Part shown: one piece after another, positions 3-22,334 of the stretch
Numbering within the stretch: the stretch's first letter is position 1
Layout: every line of letters begins with the position of its first letter
Virus record (IMG/VR): IMGVR_UViG_3300030101_000718
Coordinates: 1 to 22,334 of that record
Reading direction: 5' to 3' (one strand)
DNA from: a virus
DNA: 22,334 bases
Notes under the pieces: model-generated
Seen by the model: only the letters and a program-made list of their open reading frames with translations
Database searches by the model: none
Told to the model about the DNA's origin: nothing
Position numbers and translations under genes: made by a program

Positions 3-680
3 GATACGATGTATTGTGTATTTTTAGGAAGAGCATTACAAACTGTAACACCTGCAACTAATAGTATTACAGCTGCTATGGTTGGTAATGATTTAATATC
101 TGGTAAAACTGCTTTAGGTGAGACTCCAGCTGATACTGATGAACTTCTTGTAAGTGATGCTGGAACATTAAAAAGAGTTGATTTTAGTCATGTTAAAGGT
201 GGTGGAATAACAAATGCACAAGAATTTTTATTAACATCTAATAAGTCTGGTACAAACTCAACAGATAATTTTATTACATCAAATATTTCAGAGAATGCAA
301 CTGCTTCTTATGGTGCTATTGGATCAAATGTTTCTCAATCAAGTGGGGTATTTTCTTTTAGTGCAACAGGAATTTATTTAGTAACTTTTGAAATTACAGG
401 TGCAACATCCTCAACAGATGATTTTGATGCTTCTATAGACATCACAACAGATAACTCAACTTTTGAAAATAGAGCAAGAAAATGGTTTAATCCTAGAACT
501 TCTGAACCAGATAAATTTCAAGGTACAATACAAACGATAGTTGATGTTTCAAATACAACAAATGTAAAAATAAAATTTAATATTGGGCCAACTAATCCTC
601 CTTCAAGTAATGTAACTTTTTATGGTAGTTCAGATGAGATTATGACAGGATTTAGGTTTATTCGATTAGGCGACACATAG
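3..680 (+). CDS. Tail fibre / receptor-binding protein, 5'-truncated by window edge (fibre 1)
   Basis: The reading frame is open to the left edge. The first ATG, at 9, is probably internal: the residues read DT-MYCVFLGRALQT, the kind of strand seen inside marine phage fibre N-terminal domains (compare TGDVIDFVQILGN in the fibre at 2664). The gene therefore most likely starts upstream. Next comes a linker with the motif ADTDELLVSDAG and then SHVKGGG, nearly identical to one in the second fibre. The C-terminal ~140 residues are beta-rich, with a GIYLVTFEI strand and a final TGFRFIRLGDT, which looks like a C1q/TNF-type jelly-roll tip. The likely role is host-surface binding at the virion tail. 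A good AGGAG ribosome site follows for the next gene. The fibre assignment is fairly confident; the fold is inferred. Confidence 0.72.
   Translation, partial: DTMYCVFLGRALQTVTPATNSITAAMVGNDLISGKTALGETPADTDELLVSDAGTLKRVDFSHVKGGGITNAQEFLLTSNKSGTNSTDNFITSNISENATASYGAIGSNVSQSSGVFSFSATGIYLVTFEITGATSSTDDFDASIDITTDNSTFENRARKWFNPRTSEPDKFQGTIQTIVDVSNTTNVKIKFNIGPTNPPSSNVTFYGSSDEIMTGFRFIRLGDT
108..209 (+). repeat. Fibre linker module, copy 1
   Basis: This 34-codon segment encodes the ADTDELLVSDAG...SHVKGGGI linker of fibre 1. It matches 3024-3125 in fibre 2 at 31 of 34 residues by eye, while the C-terminal domains that follow are unrelated. It marks the junction at which different tip domains appear to be joined to a common stalk. 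Confidence 0.8.
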
Positions 681-689
681 GAGTAACCC

Positions 690-1340
690 ATGGCACTCTC
701 TAAGGTTAACTTTAATAGTTTAAATGTAACACCATCTGCTAGTAAGGTTTTAAAATTTAATTCTAATAATAATGGATTAGAGGCAGGAGATGTTGGTGGT
801 AGTCTAGTATTAATATCTACATCAACAGCTTCAAGTTCATCAACTATTGATATTACAAGTGGTATAGACTCTACATATAAAGAATACATTGTAAAGTTTA
901 TAAATATACACCCAGCAACTGATAGTGTTCATTTTCTTTTTCAGGGTGATACAGGAACAAATACTAGTTATAATCAAACTATTACATCTGCATCTTTTAG
1001 AGCATATAATTATGAGGGTTCAGGAACACCAACTCTTCAATATTATACAAGTGGAGATTTAGATCAAGATACAGATTTTCATTATATGACAGGAAATGCT
1101 GGTGTAGGTAATGATAGTGATCAAGACTTTAACGGCACTATGCACTTATTTGATCCTAGTAATACAACATTTGTAAAACATTTTTTTATAGACACACATA
1201 GTCATGGCCCATCAAATTATACCATGCGATTTTTTGCAGGTGGGTATTTTAATACTACAACAGCGATAACTAGATTACGTTTTAAATTTAGTAGTGGTAA
1301 TATAGACTCAGGAACAATAAAATTATATGGAGTATCATAA
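690..1340 (+). CDS. Fibre-associated paralogue A (cassette 1, position 1)
   Basis: This 216 aa protein is the first of six paralogues in the window. Shared landmarks are MAL-K-NFNS at the N-terminus, TASSSSTI near residue 50, GIDSTYKEY, an IHPATD motif, a GNDSDQ motif, HLFDPSNTTFVKHF near residue 155, GY-NTT, and a C-terminal SGNIDSGTIKLYGVS. It is rich in Ser, Thr, Asn and aromatic residues with no signal peptide, as expected for an all-beta virion surface domain. Its body and its LYGVS end match the paralogue at 3768. An AGGAG site lies 7 bases upstream of the ATG. It abuts fibre 1 and overlaps the next gene by one base (TAATG). No function is established; a receptor-binding or decoration subunit is the best inference. 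Confidence 0.75.
   Translation: MALSKVNFNSLNVTPSASKVLKFNSNNNGLEAGDVGGSLVLISTSTASSSSTIDITSGIDSTYKEYIVKFINIHPATDSVHFLFQGDTGTNTSYNQTITSASFRAYNYEGSGTPTLQYYTSGDLDQDTDFHYMTGNAGVGNDSDQDFNGTMHLFDPSNTTFVKHFFIDTHSHGPSNYTMRFFAGGYFNTTTAITRLRFKFSSGNIDSGTIKLYGVS
711..739 (+). repeat. 29-nt perfect direct repeat, copy 1 (with 2032-2060)
   Basis: The 29 bases encoding the FNSLNVTPSA region of paralogue A are identical to 2032-2060 in paralogue C. The surrounding sequence is clearly diverged. This suggests recent local exchange or gene conversion limited to the N-terminal segment. Confidence 0.85.
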
Positions 1341-2011
1341 TGGCACTTACAAAATTTAATTTTAATAGTTTTGATATAACATCAGCTGCTAGTAAAGGGA
1401 TTGGATTTAACGCCAGTGCTAATGGTTTTAGTACATTTGATGATACATCAATGGTATTAATTAAAACCATAACAGCTAGTTCTGATTCAACAATATCTTT
1501 TGTTAATGGAAGTTCAGATGTTGTTTTTGATAACACATACCCTGTGTATTTATTTAAATTTATAGCTTGTCATCCATCAGGAAGTGGAGACTCAGCAGCA
1601 CAGTTTCAATTTAATTTTAGTGCTGATACTGGTAGTAATTATAATGTAACTAAAACATCATACGCATTTGAGGCAAGAAACTCTGAGGGTGGGGGAACAG
1701 GTGTTTTATCATATAATACAGGTAGAGACTTGGCACAAGGTACAGGTTTTCAATATTTATCAGATAGAATGGATAGTCTCGGCAATGATTATAATATTAG
1801 TGGAGAGTTATATGTATTTAATCCGTCATCAACAACATTTGTAAAACACTATATAGCTAGAACAAATTTTATAAATAGTAATATAAATTATTTATATCAC
1901 ATAGGTGGTTATGGAAATACTACATCTGCAGTAGATGCTATTCAGTTTAAATTTGATCCACAAAATATTGATGCTGGTACAATTAAACTTTATGGAATAA
2001 AGGATAGTTAA
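1340..2011 (+). CDS. Fibre-associated paralogue B (cassette 1, position 2)
   Basis: This 223 aa protein is the second paralogue of the first cassette. It starts MALTKFNFNS like its neighbours but has a distinct body type. Instead of GIDSTYKEY it carries GSSDVVFDNTYPVYLFKF, then FNFSADTGSNYNVTKT, GRDLAQGTGFQYL, FNPSSTTFVKHY and a C-terminal GTIKLYGIKDS. The same variants, including the IKDS ending, recur in the paralogue at 4369, its positional counterpart. The start codon shares an A with the previous stop, as at its own 3' end, so expression is probably translationally coupled. The role is inferred from context as a surface or tip protein of the tail fibre apparatus. Confidence 0.75.
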   Translation: MALTKFNFNSFDITSAASKGIGFNASANGFSTFDDTSMVLIKTITASSDSTISFVNGSSDVVFDNTYPVYLFKFIACHPSGSGDSAAQFQFNFSADTGSNYNVTKTSYAFEARNSEGGGTGVLSYNTGRDLAQGTGFQYLSDRMDSLGNDYNISGELYVFNPSSTTFVKHYIARTNFINSNINYLYHIGGYGNTTSAVDAIQFKFDPQNIDAGTIKLYGIKDS

Positions 2012-2655
2012 TGGCACTTAATAAATTAAAATTTAATAGTTTAAATGTAACACCATCTGCAAATGAAGCTATAAAATTTAATAGCAGTGCTAATGGATTT
2101 GAGACAGGATCTGCAGGTGGATCTATGAAGTTTATCTCAAAAGCAACTGCATCATCTTCATCTACTATTAGCATTACTTCTGGAATTGATAGCACATATA
2201 AAGAATATCTATTTATTTTTAAAGATATACATCCAGGTACAGATGGATCTAGATTTACATTTCAAGGAGATACTGGTACTAATACTAATTACAATCAAAC
2301 AATTACTTCATTATTTTTTTACGCACAACAAGGTGAAAGTGATGACACACTTTTAGCTTATGGCCCATCACAAGATCAATCACAAGGAACTGGGTTTCAA
2401 GATTTATCTTTAGGTATAGATAGTGATGGAAATGATAGTAGTCTTTGTGGATATTTACATATATTTAATCCATCATCTTCAACTTTTGTAAAACATTTTA
2501 TAGGTACAACTCAATTTGTAGGTAATGGATATTATAGTTATGGTAATTATTCAGCTGGATATTTTAACACCACTACTGCAATTACAAGATTTCAATTTAA
2601 AATGTCTTCAGGAAATATAGATTCAGGAACAATAACATTATACGGAATTAATTAA
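2011..2655 (+). CDS. Fibre-associated paralogue C (cassette 1, position 3)
   Basis: This 214 aa protein is the third paralogue. The N-terminus (MALNKLKFNSLNVTPSA) is nearly that of paralogue A and includes a 29-base identical stretch. The body has GIDSTYKEYLFIFKDIHPGTD, QGDTGTNTNYNQT, LHIFNPSSSTFVKHFIG and KMSSGNIDSGTITLYGIN. The HIFNPSS, KMSSGNID and LYGIN variants are shared with its positional counterpart at 4989. Both genes close their triplet. An AAGGAGG ribosome site directly follows the stop and serves the next fibre gene. A virion surface role is inferred. Confidence 0.75.
   Translation: MALNKLKFNSLNVTPSANEAIKFNSSANGFETGSAGGSMKFISKATASSSSTISITSGIDSTYKEYLFIFKDIHPGTDGSRFTFQGDTGTNTNYNQTITSLFFYAQQGESDDTLLAYGPSQDQSQGTGFQDLSLGIDSDGNDSSLCGYLHIFNPSSSTFVKHFIGTTQFVGNGYYSYGNYSAGYFNTTTAITRFQFKMSSGNIDSGTITLYGIN
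2032..2060 (+). repeat. 29-nt perfect direct repeat, copy 2 (with 711-739)
   Basis: This is the second copy of the N-terminal coding repeat described at 711-739, located about 1.3 kb downstream in paralogue C. Confidence 0.85.
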
Positions 2656-2663
2656 GGAGGAAC

Positions 2664-3518
2664 ATGCCCTATATAGGAAAAACACCCACTGTGGGAAACT
2701 TTCAAGATGCGATATCAGTCGTAAACGGACAGGCAGCTTACACCCTACAGGTAGGGGGTGTTAACGTTGCACCAGAATCAGCTAATCATATGTTGGTTAG
2801 TTTAAATGGTATTTTACAAAAACCAGGTAGTTCATTTACTATCTCTGGTTCTACTATGACTTTTGCTTCAAATTTAGCAACGGGTGATGTTATCGACTTT
2901 GTTCAAATATTAGGTAATGTGCTCGACCTAGGTCAACCCTCTGACGATACTGTAAAAACTGCAACTATACAAGCTAATGCAGTTACAGGGGCAAAATTAA
3001 ATACAGATGTTATTTCGGCACAAACTGCTCTCGGTGCAACTCCAGCAGATACAGATGAACTTTTAGTTTCTGATGCAGGAGTTTTAAAACGAGTTGACTT
3101 TAGTCATATTAAAGGTGGTGGTATAGTTGCTCAACTTGGTTTTGAAACTGATCCACCATCAACAACATCTTCGACTAATACTAGTTTTGTAGATGTAGGT
3201 TCTGATATTACATTCACACCAACTACATCAGGAAGTAAAGTTTGGATAAATGTTTTTTTTAAAGGTAGTATTGGTGGTGGTGCTGGTCAATATAAAATTG
3301 TTAGAACTGTTGGGGGATCTGCAACTGATGCAGTTACATATGATATTAGTGCAAGTCAAACAAGAATTTTTAATAGATGGTACGAAGATAGTCCAAACAC
3401 TACATCACAAATAACTTACAAATTACAGATGAAAAGCACAAATGGTAATCAAGGTCATACAATTTACGTTGAAGAGACCCATAGTGTAAACTGGTTTTTA
3501 ATAGAAGCAACATCATAA
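2664..3518 (+). CDS. Tail fibre protein (fibre 2)
   Basis: This 284 aa protein appears complete. It begins MPYIGKTPTVGNFQ, an opening I recall from marine phage fibres. Residues ~1-90 form a beta-rich attachment domain ending TGDVIDFVQILGNVLDLGQPSDD. Residues ~105-120 contain the NAVTGAKLNTDVIS segment typical of phage fibre linkers. Residues ~121-154 are the ADTDELLVSDAG...SHIKGGG module shared with fibre 1. The C-terminal ~130 residues (VDVGSDITFTPTTSGSKVWI to VNWFLIEATS) are a different predicted beta-sandwich tip. The start is set by AAGGAGG at 2654-2660. It opens the second cassette and likely provides the stalk that docks tip proteins to the tail. Confidence 0.8.
   Translation: MPYIGKTPTVGNFQDAISVVNGQAAYTLQVGGVNVAPESANHMLVSLNGILQKPGSSFTISGSTMTFASNLATGDVIDFVQILGNVLDLGQPSDDTVKTATIQANAVTGAKLNTDVISAQTALGATPADTDELLVSDAGVLKRVDFSHIKGGGIVAQLGFETDPPSTTSSTNTSFVDVGSDITFTPTTSGSKVWINVFFKGSIGGGAGQYKIVRTVGGSATDAVTYDISASQTRIFNRWYEDSPNTTSQITYKLQMKSTNGNQGHTIYVEETHSVNWFLIEATS
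3024..3125 (+). repeat. Fibre linker module, copy 2
   Basis: This is the second copy of the 34-residue linker described at 108-209. It differs at only three residues (Glu/Ala, Thr/Val and Val/Ile), while the downstream tip domain is unrelated. Confidence 0.8.
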
Positions 3519-3530
3519 TAGGAAATAATA

Positions 3531-3764
3531 ATGGATAAAATAAGTAGAGCAATATCTTCAATAGAAAGTGGTAGATTATTCTCTTACAGAGGTGATGATC
3601 TAGATAGTATTATTTGGTACGATTTAGATACTAAATCTGCTATTTCAAAAGAAGATATACAAACTGCAATTAACGGATTAGATATTAAAGTTAGTGCTAG
3701 AAATAAATTAATGAAAGGTGAACCATTAACTGAAGAAGAAGCTAATGCATTAACAGGGGTCTAA
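3531..3764 (+). CDS. Small fibre-associated protein, possible assembly chaperone
   Basis: This 77 aa acidic protein lies between fibre 2 and the second paralogue triplet. The C-terminal pattern ARNKLMKGEPLTEEEANALTGV resembles the tails of small proteins found next to phage fibres. The WYDLDTKSAISKEDIQTAI segment suggests a compact fold. AGGA is placed just upstream of the ATG. Its position inside a fibre cassette, with no equivalent in cassette 1, suggests a chaperone or accessory role in fibre assembly. I recognise no family with confidence. Confidence 0.6.
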   Translation: MDKISRAISSIESGRLFSYRGDDLDSIIWYDLDTKSAISKEDIQTAINGLDIKVSARNKLMKGEPLTEEEANALTGV

Positions 3765-3767
3765 CAC

Positions 3768-4382
3768 ATGTCAATCAATGTGTGCAACAACAACTCCATG
3801 TCAGCAATCACGAGTCTACCCAGTGGTGTCGGTGGTGGATCGTTAAATCTTATATCTACTACAACTGCATCAAGCAGTTCAACAGTTTCTATTGCTAGTG
3901 GAATAGATTCTACTTACAAAGAGTATATTGTAAAATTTTTTGATGTGCATCCTGCTACTGATAATAGCACCTCTACAAATTATTTTGAAGTTAATTTTAG
4001 AGATGGTTCAACAGATTATGATGCTACTAAAACCACAACTATTTTTAGAGCATATCATTTTGAAGATGGTTCTGGTGGTGTTTTACAATATCAAGACGAC
4101 CATGATTTAGCACAAAGTACAGGGTTTCAAAGACTTGCACAAGGAATGGGTAATGATAATGATCAATGTGTAGCAGGAATGTTGCATTTATTTGACCCTA
4201 GTAGCACAACTTTTGTAAAACATTTTTTATGTGAAACTAATAATATTCATGCAGATAATGCAAGTTATAGGTGGAATGTAGCTGGTTATTGTAATACTAC
4301 AACTGCTATTGATGGTATTCAATTTAAAATGACTACAGGTAATATAGATTCGGGAACATTTAAATTATATGGCGTTAGTTAA
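3768..4382 (+). CDS. Fibre-associated paralogue D (cassette 2, position 1)
   Basis: This 204 aa protein is the positional counterpart of the paralogue at 690. Shared variants are GSL-LIST-TASSSST, GIDSTYKEYIVKF, HPATD, LFDPSSTTFVKHF and an LYGVS ending. Its N-terminus (MSINVCNNNSMSAITS) is shorter and belongs to the NN-S-VTS type of cassette 2, not the FNS type of cassette 1. Landmarks DLAQSTGFQRLAQ and GNDNDQ are clear. The ribosome site is weak (GGGGTCTAACAC), so coupling to the upstream gene, which ends 3 bases earlier, is likely. The last 14 bases overlap the next gene's start. Function is inferred from the family's context. Confidence 0.75.
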   Translation: MSINVCNNNSMSAITSLPSGVGGGSLNLISTTTASSSSTVSIASGIDSTYKEYIVKFFDVHPATDNSTSTNYFEVNFRDGSTDYDATKTTTIFRAYHFEDGSGGVLQYQDDHDLAQSTGFQRLAQGMGNDNDQCVAGMLHLFDPSSTTFVKHFLCETNNIHADNASYRWNVAGYCNTTTAIDGIQFKMTTGNIDSGTFKLYGVS

Positions 4383-4989
4383 ATATAACAATAATAGTTT
4401 AAGTAGTGTAACAAGTGCTGCTGGTTTTCCTGCTGGTGCAATGACATTAATTAAAACTTTGACAGCTAGTTCTAGTTCTACATTGTCTTTTGTTGATGGA
4501 TCATCAGATGTTGTTTTAGATAGTACATATCCAATTTATATGTTTAAGTTTATAAATATTCATTGTAGTAATGATGATGAAAATTTTCAATTTAATTTAA
4601 GTGCAGATTCAGGAAGTAATTATAATGTTACTAAAACAACAAGTCTTTTTACAGCAGATCATCATGAAGGTGGTGGAGCAAATCTTCAATATAATCCATC
4701 AAGAGATTTAGCACAAAGCACAGGAAATGTAAATCTTGCACATAGATTAGGTTCAGACAATGATCAATCAGCAAGTGGTACTCTACATCTTTTTGACCCT
4801 TCAAATACAACTTTTGTAAAACATTTCTTTGGTATATTTAATCATTCTTTAGCTGGAGATACTTCGATTAATAATTATGTTGCTGGTTATGCAAATACAA
4901 CTTCAGCTATTGATGCAGTTCAATTCGTAATGTCAGCAGGAACTATAGACTCTGGTACAATAAAACTATATGGAATAAAGGATAGCTAA
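4369..4989 (+). CDS. Fibre-associated paralogue E (cassette 2, position 2)
   Basis: This 206 aa protein is the counterpart of the paralogue at 1340. It shares GSSDVVLDSTYPIYMFKF, FNLSADSGSNYNVTKT, RDLAQSTG and the LYGIKDS ending. Its ATG lies inside the previous gene: TATGGCGTTAGTTAA reads Tyr-Gly-Val-Ser-stop in one frame and Met-Ala-Leu-Val in the next. The conserved C-terminal motif of one paralogue therefore supplies the start and MAL opening of the next. No separate ribosome site is evident, which implies reinitiation or coupling. The role is probably a tail-tip surface protein. Confidence 0.75.
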   Translation: MALVKYNNNSLSSVTSAAGFPAGAMTLIKTLTASSSSTLSFVDGSSDVVLDSTYPIYMFKFINIHCSNDDENFQFNLSADSGSNYNVTKTTSLFTADHHEGGGANLQYNPSRDLAQSTGNVNLAHRLGSDNDQSASGTLHLFDPSNTTFVKHFFGIFNHSLAGDTSINNYVAGYANTTSAIDAVQFVMSAGTIDSGTIKLYGIKDS

Positions 4990-5603
4990 TGAGTATTGTT
5001 AAATTAAATAATAGGGGAGTTAGATCAGTAACTTCATTCGGTAGTCTTACCAGTGGCTCCACAACTTTTATTAAAAAGTTAACTGCTTCTAGTTCTTCAA
5101 CTATAGATTTTGTTGATGGTTCTAGCGATGTTGTATTAGATAATACTTACAAAGAATATTTGTTTACTTTTAAAAATATACATCCAGCAACAGATAATGT
5201 TTTTCTTGGTCATCAAGCAGATGTAGATGGTCAAACTACTTATGGACAAACTTGCACTAATACAATGTTTTATGCAAGGCACTATGAAAATGATTCTTTA
5301 GCAAATGTATCTATTTATTCTTCTGATGATCAAGCACAAGGAACGGCAGTAAATAAAATGGTTCAATTAGGAAATGATAACGATCAAGCTGGAGCTGGAT
5401 TTTTACATATATTTAATCCAAGTTCTACAACATTTGTAAAACATTTTATAAGTAGATTTAATGGGGCACATCCTTCAGATACTACTTTTGAAATATATAA
5501 TGCTGGTTATTATAATACAACATCTGCTTTAAATACATTTAGATTTAAAATGTCTTCAGGGAATATAGATGCTGGAGATATTTGTTTATACGGAATTAAT
5601 TAA
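4989..5603 (+). CDS. Fibre-associated paralogue F (cassette 2, position 3)
   Basis: This 204 aa protein is the last paralogue and the counterpart of the one at 2011. The two share YKEYLF-FK-IHP-TD, LHIFNPSS-TFVKHFI, KMSSGNID and an LYGIN ending. It is a mosaic: the upstream FVDGSSDVVLDNTY is of the second-position type (as in B and E), while the following KEYLFTFKNIHPATD is of the first/third type. Its N-terminus (MSIVKLNNRGVRSVTS) is of the cassette 2 type. The start shares an A with the previous stop. The gene is followed by a short TAA-rich spacer and AGGAG for the next gene. Confidence 0.75.
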   Translation: MSIVKLNNRGVRSVTSFGSLTSGSTTFIKKLTASSSSTIDFVDGSSDVVLDNTYKEYLFTFKNIHPATDNVFLGHQADVDGQTTYGQTCTNTMFYARHYENDSLANVSIYSSDDQAQGTAVNKMVQLGNDNDQAGAGFLHIFNPSSTTFVKHFISRFNGAHPSDTTFEIYNAGYYNTTSALNTFRFKMSSGNIDAGDICLYGIN

Positions 5604-5624: not shown

Positions 5625-5912
5625 ATGCCAAGATATCATAATATAAATGGTGAGAGGGTACAGTTCACAGCTGCAGAAGAAGCAGCTAGAGATGCTGAGG
5701 AACAAGCATGGGCAGATGGTGCTCTTGCTAGAGCACAGGCTAATCTTAGATCTAGAAGAAATCAATTACTAGCTGAGACTGACTTCTATGCTTTATCTGA
5801 TGTTACTATGTCGGATGACATGAGAACATACAGACAGGAGTTAAGAGACCTGCCTGAGGGTAAAGATACTGTTGACAAATGTAATAATGTTACATGGCCA
5901 ACTAAACCATAA
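5625..5912 (+). CDS. Phage tail assembly chaperone-like protein
   Basis: This 95 aa protein has the signature of the small tail-fibre assembly proteins often annotated as phage tail assembly chaperone (the Phage_tail_APC type). Key elements are RSRRNQLLAETDFYALSD near residues 41-60, TYRQELRDLPEG near residues 69-80, and a C-terminal VTWPTKP. The N-terminal third is a charged Ala/Glu-rich helix. An AAGGAG site precedes the ATG. In related phages such proteins help fold or attach the fibres encoded just upstream, which fits the position at the end of the fibre cluster. Family membership is assigned from memory of the motif pattern. Confidence 0.75.
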   Translation: MPRYHNINGERVQFTAAEEAARDAEEQAWADGALARAQANLRSRRNQLLAETDFYALSDVTMSDDMRTYRQELRDLPEGKDTVDKCNNVTWPTKP

Positions 5913-9432: not shown

Positions 9433-12400
9433 ATGGCTGAAAATATATTTAGTGATCTCTTACCTGAAGAGGAAAAAGGTTTTGAAAATAAACCTAAGAC
9501 TAATGATATATTTAGTGATCTCTTACCTGAAGAAGAAAGAAATTTACCTGTAAAGAATGAATTTAAACTATCAGATACACCTGATGATAAGTATGAATTA
9601 AAAGATAAAGGTTTGTTTGATGACTTGTTACCTGAAAATGAACAAGAAAAATCTTTAACTAAATTATATACAGATCCAGATACAGAGTTTGGTATAGGTG
9701 ATGCTTTTGTATTAGGTCTTACAGATACATTTAGAGGTGTTACTCAGTTTCTTGGTGGTGAAAAAGTATTCTTAATGGATGATGATTTAAAAACACAACA
9801 AGCTAAATTGAATGCAGCATTACAAGGTGAAGGTGGTGGGTTAATAGCTGCAGCTTATTTTGGTGGTGCTATATTAGATCCTGTAACTTGGTTAATACCT
9901 GTACTTAGAGGTAGAAAACTTTATCAAATGGCTATGGCTGGTGGTGTTTCTGGTGGACTTGCAGGTGCACTAGGATATGTAGATGAAAGTAGTTTACTGT
10001 TTGATGAAAGATACAAACAAGCAGCTGCTGGTGCTGTAGGTGGTGCTATTTTATCTCCACTAATAGGTAAAACTTTAGAAGCTGCAGGTGTTAGAAAAAT
10101 TAATAAACTATTAGAAGATCAAAGACCCTCTGATGCTGATATAGCAAAATTACCTGATAATTTAAAAAGAACTATATCTCTACCTGGTGAAGAGGATATT
10201 TTTAAAGGCACAGAAAAAGCATTAAAAAAAAGTAAAAGAAAAGGTAAGATAAAAGGTAGAGGTAAAGTAGAGGCTATTGTTAGAGAAAAAATAGAATTTA
10301 AAAAAATAGATAGGTTAGATGGTAGACCTGGAAAAGATAGTAATAGAGATTATCTATTAAGAGGGCCCAGAGAATTTTTTAAAACTATATTAGGTTCTTA
10401 TGTAAAACCAGTTACAGATCCCATAGTAAAACCCACAGGTAAAGTTTTACAAGCTGTTACCAGACCTATAGCCGAAGGTACAGAAAAAGTTAAAGGTGCT
10501 TATACTAAAAAAGCACAAAAAATTTACAGTGATTATTTTTCAGTAGGGCCTAAAGCTGGTGAGTTTGGAACAGGTGCTGCAGGTGCATTGTATGGATTTG
10601 CATTACCTGACGATGGTGAATTATTTGGAGTAGAACTACCCGAAGAGTTACAAGGTGGTTTAACTGAAAAATTTTCAAGAGCAGCCTTAGGTTTTATGAT
10701 GGGTTATGGGGGTGTAAAGTTAGCTAAAAAAACTCAAGTTCCTGATTTTGTAAAAGAAGCTAGAAGAGTAAAATTAGGTATTGATAATGTAGAACAAGAT
10801 CTAAGTATAGCTAGTTTCTTAGCTAAAGCATTTGTTGATGGTTTTAAAGTTCCTAAAGTTGTAAAGGATTTAGAGACAAGAGATTTAGAAGGTTTAAGAA
10901 ATAAAATTGAATTAGAATTTTTTAGAATATACCAACAAGCAAATCAATTAACTATTGACGAAAGAAAAGTGTTATATAATTTATTAGAAGGTGATATTAA
11001 ATTTAATGATGTTCCAAAAGATTTAGGAAAATTAGGTAAAAAAGCTAGAAATCAAATTACTAAAATAACTCAAATGTATATTGATGCAGGTTTAATTACA
11101 GAGGAAACTGCACAAAGAAATATAGAGAGATATATTAAAAGAACTTATGGTGGTAAAGAAACATCTAAGATTGGTTCTGAGCTAAGAGCTAGAGGTGTTT
11201 TAGAAAAAATAACACCTAGAGATTGGGTTAATTCATTTAGTAAAAATAAAGCATTTAAAATAAATAATGAAGGTAAACTTGTACGTGTAAATGAACATAA
11301 AGGTTGGGAATTATTTGGTAATGTTAATAAGGTACAGGGTGTAGACAAAGTAGGTGAAGAATTTGAAAAAGCAACACCTGAACTAGTAAAAAAATTAGCT
11401 AAAGATCCTAAAAAAGCAAACCAAGATATATTAACTGTTAGGTGGGAATATACTAAACAAGAACGTCTTGGTATGTCCGAGATAGAAGATGGTGCATTTG
11501 CTATTATGGAAACTGGTAGATTAATGGCACAAACTTTACCTAGATATAAATTTTATGGTGATTTAGCTGCACAAACTTTTACTAAGACTGCACCATCAGC
11601 TGATGAGATAAACAGATTAGATTTGGTAAAAGTTCCTGATAGTACAAGATCAGGTACTATACAAAAAACTTATGGTGCTTTAGCAGGTAAATATATACCA
11701 AGAGAAATATATGAAAATATATTTCAAATAAATAAAACTGCAGAAGGCCCTAGAAGCACTTTTGGTAAAGGTTATAGAGCATTAAATCAAGTATGGAAAG
11801 CTAGTAAAACTGCATGGAATCCTACTGTCCATGTTAATAATATGGTTAGTAATTTAGTATTACTAGATTTAGTTGATGGTAGTGCCAGTTTATTACCATC
11901 TGCAGTAACAGCATTTAAAAATCAAAGTAGAGGTAAGTCTGTTAAAATATTAGAAGAAGCTAGTAATCTTGGTGTATTTTCTAGTAATTATGTAAAACAA
12001 GAATTAAAAGGTGGTATACTAGATCCAGACAATATAAAACCTGCATACTATAATGTTGATCCAAAAAAAGATGTTTTTGAAAATGGTGTAGACTTAACAG
12101 GTTTTATATACAAAGATTTAATTGTAAAAAATAAACTTGGATTATCAAAATTATCTGAGTATTATGCTTTAGAGGATTCTATATTTAGACTTGCTCTATA
12201 TATGGATAGAAAAAATAAAGGTTATAGTAAAGTTAGAGCAGCACAAGATGCAAGAAAATCCTTTATTGATTACAACATTCAAGCACCAGGTATAAATGCT
12301 TTAAGAAATTTACCAACACCTTTCTTAGCTTACACATACAGGGTTGTACCAATACTTGCAGAGACAGCTGTAGTTAGACCTTGGAAGTTTGCTAAGTATG

Positions 12401-13221
12401 CAGTTTTAGGTTACACGTTAAATAACTTAGGTGAGATACTGGGTGAAGGGGATGCAGATGCAGAACGTGCAGCCATGACAAAAGAAATACAAGGTAAGAT
12501 AGGTGGACTACCTTTTTTACCACATAAAAATATAAAAATTCCTACTACAGATAAAGCTAGATATGTTAATGTAACTAGGTATGTACCAGGTGGAGATATA
12601 TTTGATTTAAACTCTGGAACAATACCTTTAGTTCCACAGCCTTTACAAGCTAATTTTGGTTTAGCTGGAGAAGTTCTTTTCCCTATGTTAGGTTTTGATT
12701 TATTTAGAGGTGACAAAATAAAAGGTCAAGGTATATCTGAGTTTGATGATTTTTCTGTTAGAGCAAAGTTTGCATTAAAAAGATTAATACCTAACTTTCC
12801 TTTTATACCAGGATCATATTCTACAGAAAGAATAAGAAAAGCTAGAGAAGATAAATCTACATTAGCAAGAAGTGAATCAGAATTTTTAGCATTTTTAAAT
12901 ACTGTAGGTGTAAAGATCGAAGAGGCAGATATAGCTAGACTAAGAACCATAAAAGGTTTAGAATATAGAAGAAGGTTAAAAGGGGTACAGGAGCAAATAA
13001 GAGGAGTGTATGCTAAGTTTAGAAGTGGTTCAATTGACGAAGAAAAAAAATTTAAAGAGCTAGAAGAATTAAATAAAAAATTTAGAAAACTAAATGATGA
13101 ATATAGTGAAGCACTAAATATGGAAATAAATTATCAAGAGGGTGCAGAGTTAAGTGAAGTAATACCTAGAATAGTAACTGCTGTTAAAGGGCAAACAGAA
13201 AAATTATTTGGTAAAAATTAA
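9433..13221 (+). CDS. Giant internal virion / DNA-ejection-type protein, 1262 aa
   Basis: The N-terminal ~75 residues hold three copies of an acidic motif (IFSDLLPEEE twice, LFDDLLPENE once). Glycine-rich hydrophobic segments follow at ~137-158 (AAAYFGGAILDPVTWLIPVL), ~166-183 and ~197-212, suited to membrane insertion. A basic region with KPVTDPIVKPTGK repeats lies around 320-345. At ~793-813 the motif AWNPTVHVNNMVSNLVLLDLV resembles the helical segment of large polyvalent phage proteins. The C-terminal ~80 residues form a charged coiled coil. The size, absence of a signal peptide and position after structural genes fit a protein ejected into the host at infection. No enzymatic motif was identified, so the function is inferred. 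Confidence 0.7.
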   Translation: MAENIFSDLLPEEEKGFENKPKTNDIFSDLLPEEERNLPVKNEFKLSDTPDDKYELKDKGLFDDLLPENEQEKSLTKLYTDPDTEFGIGDAFVLGLTDTFRGVTQFLGGEKVFLMDDDLKTQQAKLNAALQGEGGGLIAAAYFGGAILDPVTWLIPVLRGRKLYQMAMAGGVSGGLAGALGYVDESSLLFDERYKQAAAGAVGGAILSPLIGKTLEAAGVRKINKLLEDQRPSDADIAKLPDNLKRTISLPGEEDIFKGTEKALKKSKRKGKIKGRGKVEAIVREKIEFKKIDRLDGRPGKDSNRDYLLRGPREFFKTILGSYVKPVTDPIVKPTGKVLQAVTRPIAEGTEKVKGAYTKKAQKIYSDYFSVGPKAGEFGTGAAGALYGFALPDDGELFGVELPEELQGGLTEKFSRAALGFMMGYGGVKLAKKTQVPDFVKEARRVKLGIDNVEQDLSIASFLAKAFVDGFKVPKVVKDLETRDLEGLRNKIELEFFRIYQQANQLTIDERKVLYNLLEGDIKFNDVPKDLGKLGKKARNQITKITQMYIDAGLITEETAQRNIERYIKRTYGGKETSKIGSELRARGVLEKITPRDWVNSFSKNKAFKINNEGKLVRVNEHKGWELFGNVNKVQGVDKVGEEFEKATPELVKKLAKDPKKANQDILTVRWEYTKQERLGMSEIEDGAFAIMETGRLMAQTLPRYKFYGDLAAQTFTKTAPSADEINRLDLVKVPDSTRSGTIQKTYGALAGKYIPREIYENIFQINKTAEGPRSTFGKGYRALNQVWKASKTAWNPTVHVNNMVSNLVLLDLVDGSASLLPSAVTAFKNQSRGKSVKILEEASNLGVFSSNYVKQELKGGILDPDNIKPAYYNVDPKKDVFENGVDLTGFIYKDLIVKNKLGLSKLSEYYALEDSIFRLALYMDRKNKGYSKVRAAQDARKSFIDYNIQAPGINALRNLPTPFLAYTYRVVPILAETAVVRPWKFAKYAVLGYTLNNLGEILGEGDADAERAAMTKEIQGKIGGLPFLPHKNIKIPTTDKARYVNVTRYVPGGDIFDLNSGTIPLVPQPLQANFGLAGEVLFPMLGFDLFRGDKIKGQGISEFDDFSVRAKFALKRLIPNFPFIPGSYSTERIRKAREDKSTLARSESEFLAFLNTVGVKIEEADIARLRTIKGLEYRRRLKGVQEQIRGVYAKFRSGSIDEEKKFKELEELNKKFRKLNDEYSEALNMEINYQEGAELSEVIPRIVTAVKGQTEKLFGKN
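9443..9470 (+). repeat. 28-nt direct repeat encoding FSDLLPE, copy 1
   Basis: Positions 9443-9470 are identical to 9506-9533, offset by 63 bases (21 codons, in frame). They encode the IFSDLLPEE motif twice in the N-terminus of the giant protein. A third, diverged copy (LFDDLLPENE) lies around 9612-9643. Confidence 0.85.
9506..9533 (+). repeat. 28-nt direct repeat encoding FSDLLPE, copy 2
   Basis: This is the second in-frame copy of the repeat at 9443-9470. The spacing is a whole number of codons, consistent with an internal motif duplication. Confidence 0.85.
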
Positions 13222-16662: not shown

Positions 16663-16772
16663 TTTGGACACTAATTTTTATTATAGGAATATCATATGCG
16701 TATTATATTATTGATAAGTTTGCTGATAACATTAACCCTTACAACTTTAGCAGAAGAGATAACAACAGATAA
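16659..16772 (+). CDS. Possible single-TM miniprotein overlapping the next gene, 37 aa
   Basis: The frame reads MIWTLIFIIGISYAYYIIDK and continues to SRRDNNR. One hydrophobic span is followed by a polar tail. It starts in an ATGA overlap with the preceding stop, but it overlaps the start of the secreted protein at 16696 by 77 bases and has no ribosome site of its own. The alternative is a chance frame in AT-rich DNA. Confidence 0.35.
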   Translation: MIWTLIFIIGISYAYYIIDKFADNINPYNFSRRDNNR

Positions 16773-18042
16773 TTTAGTTACTAATGGTAACTTTGAAACT
16801 GGTAATGCTAATGGTTGGAATACATCAGGGGATGTACAGGTATTAAATGATTGTTGTAGATTAAACAATATACCTAGTAATTATGATTTAGAGTTTGGAG
16901 ATAGTGGGTCTATTAATCAAAACTTTGATTTGAGTTCAGACACAATTACACAGAATATGTTGGATAATGGTATTACACTAGATTCAACAATTGAAGTACA
17001 AAATGGCGAGTGCAACGTCACTGGGTGTTGGGGTGGGCAAGGTAATGCTGATACATTTACAAATGTATTAACAATTAAAGATGAAGATGGTAATACGTTA
17101 GCATCTAATACTACTATTAGGACAGATGTAACTGATATAAATGGTGCTAATTTTACAGATAGATTAATCTATAATGGAACAGGATCATATACAGGTAATA
17201 TAAATATATCTGCAACAGATGCAAATGCACCTGCAACTTTAGGTGGGCCAAATGTAGATAATATATCTGTTACTATGACTTATGATAACACAGTCATAGC
17301 ACCAACTATAGCACAAGAAATAGAAGATATATTTGAAAGTGTTGAAGAAGTATTTGAAGAATTAGAATTTGTAGAGATTGAAGAGTTATTTGAAGAGTTA
17401 ATAACTTTTTTTGAAGAACCTGCTTTAGAAATGGAAGCAGTAGAGGAGTTTGAAGAAGTTACTTTTGAACCTACTCCAATGATAGTTGAAGAAATGCCAG
17501 AAGAAATGCTAGAAGAGGAGATGGTAGAGGAAGAAATAGTAGAAGAGTTTACAGAGGAAGAAGTAATAGAAGAAGCACCTACTAAATTAGCAGAGGCCCC
17601 AAGTGAAAAAGAAGAAGTTAAAGAAGAGAAACCTAATAGCGAAACTACTAAGACTGCCACTATTAAGAATGAGAATAATAAAAAACAAAAAACTATACAA
17701 CAGAAAGAAACAATCAAAAATAATCTTGTAAAAATTATGGATAAAATTGATAAAGATATAAAAGATATATCAAAAAATTTACAAATAAAAAATATAATTA
17801 AATTAGATGCTATGGTAAATAACCAAGTATCACTTGAATTATACGATGTACCCTTCTATAAAAGTAAAGATATTTATTTAGATCAAGTAGAGATACAGGA
17901 TTTAAGACAGCTATATGAAGAAAAAACTTTAGCTAATTATACATCAACAGATCCTATAGCTATCGTAAACGAAAAACTAAATAAAATAAATTTAAAGAAA
18001 AAACAAATACTAATAGAACTGGAGCAATTAAAAAATGGATAA
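16696..18042 (+). CDS. Secreted acidic phage protein with N-terminal beta domain
   Basis: The 448 aa protein has a classical signal peptide (MRIILLISLLITLTLTTLA with cleavage near residue 19). Residues ~20-195 form a beta-rich domain opening NLVTNGNFETGNANGWN, a pattern typical of carbohydrate-binding or galactose-binding-like modules. It includes paired Cys (CC, C, C) near 52-113. Residues ~205-305 are an extreme Glu-rich stretch (EELFEELITFFEE, EEEMVEEEIVEE). A Lys-rich segment and a charged helical C-terminal domain (SLELYDVPFYKSKDIYLDQV) follow. AGGAA at 16685-16689 sets the start. It is probably exported by the host. Cell-surface modification or virion attachment are guesses. Confidence 0.65.
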   Translation: MRIILLISLLITLTLTTLAEEITTDNLVTNGNFETGNANGWNTSGDVQVLNDCCRLNNIPSNYDLEFGDSGSINQNFDLSSDTITQNMLDNGITLDSTIEVQNGECNVTGCWGGQGNADTFTNVLTIKDEDGNTLASNTTIRTDVTDINGANFTDRLIYNGTGSYTGNINISATDANAPATLGGPNVDNISVTMTYDNTVIAPTIAQEIEDIFESVEEVFEELEFVEIEELFEELITFFEEPALEMEAVEEFEEVTFEPTPMIVEEMPEEMLEEEMVEEEIVEEFTEEEVIEEAPTKLAEAPSEKEEVKEEKPNSETTKTATIKNENNKKQKTIQQKETIKNNLVKIMDKIDKDIKDISKNLQIKNIIKLDAMVNNQVSLELYDVPFYKSKDIYLDQVEIQDLRQLYEEKTLANYTSTDPIAIVNEKLNKINLKKKQILIELEQLKNG

Positions 18043-21432: not shown

Positions 21433-21718
21433 TACTAACCTCCCTGACTAATCTATTTAAATACCACTGTCCTTTCTGTAAATCTTCTAATGGTTCTCCT
21501 TTAAATTTATATCTAGAAACATATTTTAATATATTACCTTTTAGATATCCATGAAACTCATCACTAGTCATGCAATCACGAATGACATCAATAGTTTCTT
21601 TTTTACCATGTAGATAGTGTGGAGGTGCATTTACATTATCATATACAGTTTCATTCTCATATGATATATCATGACCATGATCTTTTTTATGTATGTATGT
21701 TCTTTTATCTTTTACCAT
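21419..21718 (-). CDS. DUF3310-like protein (SaV / T7 gp1.7-related family)
   Basis: This 99 aa protein matches the family pattern known to me as DUF3310: VNAPPHYLHGKKETIDVIRD near residues 29-48, then GYLKGNILKYVSRYKFKGEP near 57-76 and EDLQKGQWYLNRLVRE near 77-93. The family includes phage proteins; T7 gp1.7, reported as a nucleotide kinase, has been annotated with this domain. No P-loop is visible here. AGGAGAG (- strand) supports the ATG. The overlap with the upstream phosphoesterase gene (14 bases) places both in one operon. A role in nucleotide metabolism is possible. Confidence 0.72.
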   Translation of the reverse strand: MVKDKRTYIHKKDHGHDISYENETVYDNVNAPPHYLHGKKETIDVIRDCMTSDEFHGYLKGNILKYVSRYKFKGEPLEDLQKGQWYLNRLVREVSNGSS

Positions 21719-22334
21719 ATTCTCTCCTAACAGTTTTTATATCTATTAACTCCATATTATAATTACCATCTTTCACTTCTCTTTTAACAATTAAACCACT
21801 CCACCACATATGTTGAGTATCTCTAGCAAAGTGTTCAGTGTGATTTAGATAACATCCTGCAGATAGTGCATGTAATTTTTTACCACTAGGTAATGTAGAT
21901 ACTGCATAATCTAACAAATGACTATGCCCTACTGTAGCAGAAACTTTATGTTTTGTCAATATACTTCGAGCAATATTCTCACCTGATATTGCAGATCCCA
22001 TGATACCAGAGGGTAAGTGATGTGAATAATGCACACCATCTACAACTTTTATAGCTTTATATTTAACTTCTTCCCAACCATGTTGTTTAAATTTAAGATC
22101 ACTAATCTTTAAAGTACCATCAAGTTCTGGATTCTCATCTACAAATCTGTCAATCCTATCCTCATGATTACCATGAATCATAATCTTCTTAGGTCTATGC
22201 TTACCTAATCCTCTGTTAAATAAAGATAATGCTTCATGTGAATGATCCATATCTTGTTGATATCTTCTACCTTCAAAAGATTTTTTACCTCTATCATAAG
22301 AGGATAAAGAATCCATACTACAAAAGTCACCCAT
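21705..22334 (-). CDS. Calcineurin-like metallophosphoesterase, 5'-truncated by window edge
   Basis: The frame is open to the right edge, and its Met at 22334 is probably not the true start. GDFCSMDSLSSYD corresponds to the GD of the second metal motif in this family, so an upstream D-x-H motif is missing. Also seen are SFEGRRYQQD, HGNHEDR near residues 54-60 (GNHE metal motif), VHYSHH near 101-106, and GHSH near 136-139 (final metal motif). Such enzymes hydrolyse phosphomonoesters or diesters using two metal ions; the substrate (nucleic acid, nucleotide or phosphoprotein) cannot be read here. It overlaps the next gene by 14 bases and heads the visible - strand operon. Confidence 0.82.
   Translation of the reverse strand: MGDFCSMDSLSSYDRGKKSFEGRRYQQDMDHSHEALSLFNRGLGKHRPKKIMIHGNHEDRIDRFVDENPELDGTLKISDLKFKQHGWEEVKYKAIKVVDGVHYSHHLPSGIMGSAISGENIARSILTKHKVSATVGHSHLLDYAVSTLPSGKKLHALSAGCYLNHTEHFARDTQHMWWSGLIVKREVKDGNYNMELIDIKTVRREYGKR

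Follow-up and report, generated by a model that had tools for sequence, protein, structure and literature searches.

The stretch of viral DNA considered here is IMG/VR record IMGVR_UViG_3300030101_000718, positions 1 to 22,334 (22,334 nucleotides in all, referred to below as the window). Two sets of three paralogous genes, A, B and C and then D, E and F, follow one another in it, each set preceded by a tail fibre gene (F1 and F2 respectively), and the question raised by this arrangement is whether the second set is a copy of the first. An original prediction, made from the sequence letters alone, had read the locus as a tandem duplication of a block of fibre, I, II and III, and had taken this to suggest that the three different bodies have non-redundant roles. 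Comparison with relatives leads to a different account of the two sets. At the level of sequence, such genes are shown to occur as triplets with one member of each of three classes (I, II and III), with fixed N-terminal tails and with cores that have been exchanged. On balance, the window probably holds two host-recognition cassettes, alpha (A, B, C) and beta (D, E, F), encoding one-of-each I-II-III tips with exchangeable cores in a heterotrimer-like arrangement.

The six paralogues, their coordinates and the motifs noted in them were all found to be present. IVKF and LYGVS are common to A and D, LYGIKDS to B and E, and YLF.FK.IHP, HIFNPSS, KMSSGNID and LYGIN to C and F. SSDVV, which had been listed as a mark of the second pair, is indeed found in B and E but also occurs in F and so is not diagnostic. 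The pairing by position (A/D, B/E, C/F) is likewise real, but is restricted to two stretches, residues 53-75 and the ~8 residues at the C-terminus. All six proteins match PHROG_14820, a family of unknown function, over the protein body (E 4e-58 to 7e-85), and a Pfam search of A-F returned no matches.

IMG/VR was scanned six times and genome contigs once for relatives, and three cultured phage records were added. The resulting set comprises 289 non-redundant loci with 1164 family open reading frames (ORFs) and consists almost wholly of metagenome contigs. Some of the loci (given here by L numbers) were retrieved by N-terminal peptide patterns, which introduces a bias towards varied cores behind similar tails. 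The alignment was made with 1003 family genes, core identity being measured over residues 64-205 in the numbering of A, and free-standing genes were sorted by their N-terminal tail. Five tail types were distinguished: alpha (A, B and C of the window), beta (D, E and F and the genes of cultured phages), gamma, delta and epsilon.

Each of the 316 runs scored as complete consists of exactly three genes of one N-terminal type, with 80 alpha, 165 beta, 54 delta, 16 gamma and 1 epsilon triplets, and the tail predicts the position of a gene within its run except in one gamma triplet. Along the loci the order of cassettes is always alpha > gamma > beta; alpha > beta is seen in 52 loci, with 6 more in which gamma lies in between. 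A fibre module is present upstream of alpha in 43 of the 43 cases with visible upstream DNA, and a chaperone gene lies directly 3' of beta in 125 of 130 loci and of delta in 43 of 44. Alpha, gamma and beta cassettes occur together in L035, L058 and L208, with up to nine tip genes in one locus. A single beta triplet is found in the cultured pelagiphages HTVC010P (gp30-32), HTVC034P (gp35-37) and HTVC019P (gp45-47), and the small gene after it has the annotation hypothetical in HTVC034P and tail fibre or fibre-assembly in the other two phages.

Departures from three were inspected by eye. L358 is a chimeric contig of a metagenome-assembled genome, and one gene of L211 is without a usable start codon. 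L282 (1322-3104) holds three family genes with tails unlike all five types, possibly a sixth N-terminal type. In L147 (4054-4923) the first beta gene, beta1, is fused in frame to a different short gene occupying the place of the window gene at 3531-3764, and this suggests that the short-gene product and beta1 act together.

The order of the classes differs between types but their composition does not. Profiles trained on beta triplets, which force three different classes per triplet, gave I-II-III for alpha in 76 of 76 cases, II-I-III for delta in 51 of 51 and III-II-I for gamma in 13 of 15. Single-gene calls, which are free of that constraint, agree (delta1 was called II in 58 of 61 cases and gamma3 was called I in 15 of 16), although many class III genes were called I. 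When unrelated cores of different types are compared, the class signal lies in residues 53-75, 149-153 and 209-216, with essentially none elsewhere in the core. On this basis the two stretches 53-75 and 209-216, by which class I, II or III can be told whatever the N-terminal type, are termed the class frame. When the class of a gene was called from its nearest neighbour among other N-terminal types only, the frame gave the correct class in 96.5% of cases and the core in 49.7%. Frame identity between alpha/beta and gamma/delta is 64.7% by class and 55.4% by gene position. The motifs IVKF, LYGVS, LYGIKDS and LYGIN are class-frame residues, hence the matched pairs of the original prediction, and the recovery of class across unrelated N-terminal types puts these position motifs far beyond chance. 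The C-terminal signatures were also considered as mere overlap with the next gene, which was rejected because the same ends are found at other gene positions in delta and gamma. That every triplet type contains one each of I, II and III supports the earlier suggestion of non-redundant roles for the three bodies.

The cores behave differently from the tails. Close core pairs, defined as pairs on different contigs with at least 70% identity, number 352, of which 152 occupy the same slot and 200 different slots, although these counts take in related phages and the pairs are not independent events. The 200 comprise 89 pairs of another type at the same position, 52 of the same type at another position and 59 in which both differ; random labels would be expected to give 44 same-slot pairs, 73 of another type, 88 at another position and 146 with both different. 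The same-slot excess, with 200 of the 352 pairs nevertheless elsewhere, indicates that cores remember their slot above chance but move often. Because cores also recombine internally, no single core tree can be exact, yet the nearest relatives stand out unambiguously. Where exchanged cores occupy the same position, the two genes are 15-34% identical up to residue 40, 76% identical at residues 41-45 and ~90% identical from the TASSSS motif onward. Among same-slot genes whose tails share at least 95% identity, 82% of the cores still fall below 60%, and a core that has moved to another class carries the frame of its new class. The genes thus combine a conserved N-terminal module with a divergent, horizontally exchanged C-terminal module, as is characteristic of modular receptor-binding proteins.

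In three cases a whole set of three cores is common to an alpha and a beta cassette, each of which has kept its own tails. The clearest is that of L275 alpha and L257 beta, the cores of which are 99, 99 and 100% identical; the flanks of these loci are ~80-83% identical, and at the DNA level the cores are 97-100% identical, the tails mostly much less so. The other two cases are the alpha cassette of the window with the beta cassette of L011 (core identities 0.91/0.90/0.90) and L098 alpha with L239 beta (0.94/0.90/0.95). Within single contigs no core pairs above 66% identity were found, where random draws would give only ~1. The idea that genomes avoid two similar cores was dropped, since this absence matches what is expected by chance.

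How two cassettes with the same class order arose can be considered with these data in mind. An ancient I, II, III triplet may have been duplicated once to give alpha and beta, the tails then diverging and the cores being reshuffled beyond recognition, and we rate the chance of this as approaching even. The I-II-III order and the class frames common to alpha and beta speak for such an event, as does a same-position N-terminal signal that is itself weak (23% vs 20%). Gamma and delta, however, hold the same classes in other orders, so that order is not generally kept, and the frame could persist through selection and class-matched recombination. A very old triplet duplication could therefore underlie the two cassettes, and the shared order fits it without proving it.

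With regard to function, a role in host-surface recognition appears likely for the PHROG_14820 tip proteins, because of their fibre and chaperone neighbours, the fusion of the domain to fibres and the structural neighbours of the predicted fold. The paralogues lie beside tail fibre genes and a chaperone for fibre assembly, as would be expected of modular receptor-binding proteins, and 87 fibre-type ORFs in relatives end in a PHROG_14820 domain. An AlphaFold2 model of A is a beta-sandwich (predicted local distance difference test score, pLDDT, 88), and among its structural neighbours in viral models are proteins carrying the names tail fibre or Stf repeat. When solved structures were searched by sequence, no significant match emerged.

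From these observations we infer receptor binding by a I-II-III heterotrimer. Alpha and beta would each encode three paralogous tail-fibre tip proteins in which three layers can be recognised. The first, an N-terminal tail of ~30-45 residues, would set cassette and position and probably docks the protein on its own fibre or on a partner. The second, the class frame, made up of the first body strand (53-75) and the last strand (209-216), would mark the protein as I, II or III. The third, the hypervariable beta-sandwich core (residues 76-205), would recognise the host surface. Recombination at the TASSSS motif and at the GTIKLYG end would replace the core and leave assembly undisturbed. The tip would be heterotypic, and most likely a I-II-III heterotrimer joined through tail and frame, because one protein per class is encoded whatever the gene order and because the class residues lie on strands 65-75 and 205-215. 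At the level of genes, three different subunits, one per class, are encoded together, as such an assembly would require. A stricter form, in which the heterotrimeric I+II+III tip is obligate and is coded by its tails to its own fibre, and in which a community-wide pool of cores is moved singly or as threes, is offered tentatively, its chances being somewhat short of even.

The main rival to the heterotrimer is a serial chain of three homotrimers or, more broadly, three separate homotrimers that are stacked serially or placed at separate sites as alternative receptor binders. The known phage fibres are mostly homotrimers, which counts in favour of this possibility. A chain running from proximal to distal would likewise accord with the ordered genes and their position-specific tails, and the cores move independently. 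The presence of one protein per class in every triplet type and of the class signal in body strands favours an interface within one assembly, though a chain is still compatible with both; we regard separate homotrimers as possible but rather doubtful. Several observations nevertheless weigh against a heterotypic receptor-binding tip. Just one core is common to the two triplets in 71 of 78 cross-type triplet pairs, which suggests that co-adaptation of the cores to one another is not a requirement. The single real candidate exception to three, L196 (748-1350), is a lone gene before the chaperone. It has the tail of a beta1 gene and a C-terminal end like that of beta3, as would result if paralogues had recombined and the rest of the triplet had been lost, and if this contig is correct three may not be strictly essential. 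The N-terminal tail of A is poorly modelled (pLDDT 51-73), and the model is of a monomer, so that subunit contacts are outside its scope. The best good-probability neighbours among solved structures are galectin carbohydrate-binding domains and are weak, the best being galectin-8 (E 2.6e-3, probability 1.00, template modelling score 0.34/0.45).

It is improbable that a tandem duplication of fibre, I, II and III made the second set within this phage lineage. The I-II-III order, the position-specific frame residues and the fibre linker are common to both sets, as such an event would predict. The two fibres do share a linker, yet it is just 58 residues long at 67% identity and the tips are unrelated; since linkers of this kind recur in 71 of the 289 loci, it counts as a general fibre module. 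The second block also contains an extra 77-residue gene (3531-3764) without a counterpart in the first. Core identity for the matched pairs is 46% for A-D, 46% for B-E and 45% for C-F, compared with 49% for A-C and a background between different phages of ~45-46% (mean; standard deviation 6). The sister pairs A+D, B+E and C+F, proposed as a check, were none of them recovered in a likelihood tree of the cores. With close relatives included, A+D was rejected (approximately unbiased test, p = 0.005), while B+E (p = 0.065) and C+F (p = 0.24) were neither recovered nor rejected. Outside alpha cassettes, the nearest relatives of A, B and C lie in the beta cassette of another phage, at 90-91% identity and with a different N-terminus. 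The core of A is 91% identical to beta1 of L011 and of L239 (the same contig as L010), and for the core of B the beta2 genes give 90% and 87%. The core of C matches L011 beta3 at 90% and the first alpha gene of L046 at 84%. A-like (94%) and B-like (89%) cores are also held by alpha slots of L098. The tails put A, B and C together, with 36-61% identity among them and 34% for A-D, 41% for B-E and 22% for C-F. The alpha > beta arrangement is a standing one in many phages. Within-contig core pairs, all at or below 66%, point the same way, though they are not below the random-draw expectation. The proposed block duplication is thus not supported, and a recent one is largely ruled out by background-level core identity together with the unrecovered sister pairs. 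Alpha and beta are, on this comparative evidence, two old, fixed cassettes common in marine phages and not a fresh tandem copy.

That the slot changes are assembly artefacts, produced by chimeric joins at conserved motifs, is very unlikely, for although every slot-change locus examined is a metagenome contig, the bodies are ~450-bp repeats with conserved ends and L358 is clearly chimeric, L257 and L275 come from different samples, six consistent in-register mis-joins would be required, and more than one slot is represented in 75 of 180 shared-core clusters, with gene order and class frames intact.

Table 1. Features of the two cassettes and their neighbours (window coordinates).
Feature	Position	Strand	Remarks
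Fibre F1	3..680	+	crosses window 5' end; linker ISGKTALGETPADTDELLVSDAGTLKRVDFSHVKGGGI and own unrelated tip
A, predicted class I tip protein, alpha cassette position 1	690..1340	+	PHROG_14820, tail type, class call
A residues 1-45, alpha-type N-terminal tail (putative "cassette address")	690..824	+	
A residues 53-75, class frame first part	846..914	+	contains YKEYIVKF
A residues 76-205, exchangeable recognition core	915..1304	+	recognition role putative
A residues 209-216, class frame C-terminal strand	1314..1337	+	TIKLYGVS
B, class II, alpha cassette position 2	1340..2011	+	LYGIKDS end
C, class III, alpha cassette position 3	2011..2655	+	LYGIN end
Fibre F2, tail fibre protein	2664..3518	+	PHROG_18673; F1-like linker, tip unrelated to F1 tip
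77-residue gene between F2 and beta cassette	3531..3764	+	
D, class I, beta cassette position 1	3768..4382	+	
E, class II, beta cassette position 2	4369..4989	+	14-nucleotide start overlap with D end
F, class III, beta cassette position 3	4989..5603	+	
Tail fibre assembly chaperone	5625..5912	+	Pfam Phage_tail_APC; directly 3' of F

Elsewhere in the window, a 1262-residue putative internal virion protein is encoded at 9433-13221. The nearest annotated phage record to it has only 23% identity over 37% of the length, which indicates that the backbone of this phage is far from those of cultured phages. The 448-residue product of 16696-18042 starts like a signal peptide, contains a long Glu-rich stretch and had no PHROG match at E 0.01. 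The gene at 18358-19026 matches PHROG_3704 (E 1e-56; moron / auxiliary gene category, listed as ferredoxin), and a metallophosphoesterase gene (PHROG_221) at 21705-22334 on the minus strand lies within a minus-strand gene cluster and crosses the window end.

SAR11 bacteria are among the most abundant in the sea and, to our knowledge, few receptor binders of their phages are known. A family-wide rule of three classes, fixed tails and exchangeable cores would allow proteins annotated as hypothetical to be called probable fibre tips and would delimit each putative recognition core to ~130 residues. Variation in host range could then be tracked as core exchange, apart from genome ancestry. If the heterotrimer is correct, it would represent a natural phage adhesion made from three non-identical subunits, each with a different binding surface.

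A search of open-licence papers for heterotrimeric phage fibres gave no matching precedent, and no description of a three-subunit, three-layer code or of set-wise core exchange was found in that literature. In pelagiphages, hypervariable host-recognition islands with fibre-associated, lectin- or C1q-like genes that vary between close relatives, and with low read recruitment, are described in the available portions of two papers (PMC3909814, PMC10504331); triplets, slot tails, class frames and slot-to-slot core exchange are not reported in those portions. Receptor-binding proteins of Klebsiella and E. coli phages consist of a conserved N-terminal anchor and a specificity module that is horizontally exchanged (PMC8262889, PMC10408124, PMC6872550). 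The window resembles them in this combination of anchor and exchanged module, but what is exchanged in those phages is a single protein with its anchor, whereas here each cassette has three paralogues, one per class, with a separate class frame. Exchange of specificity modules and pelagiphage hypervariability are therefore already known, while the triplet and class code with set-wise exchange is apparently new. The closest cultured counterparts are the proteins of HTVC010P, HTVC034P and HTVC019P, which also belong to PHROG_14820, have the same order and precede a small gene in the fibre or fibre-assembly place. Unlike these phages, with their one beta triplet annotated as hypothetical, the window adds an upstream alpha triplet with a fibre of its own.

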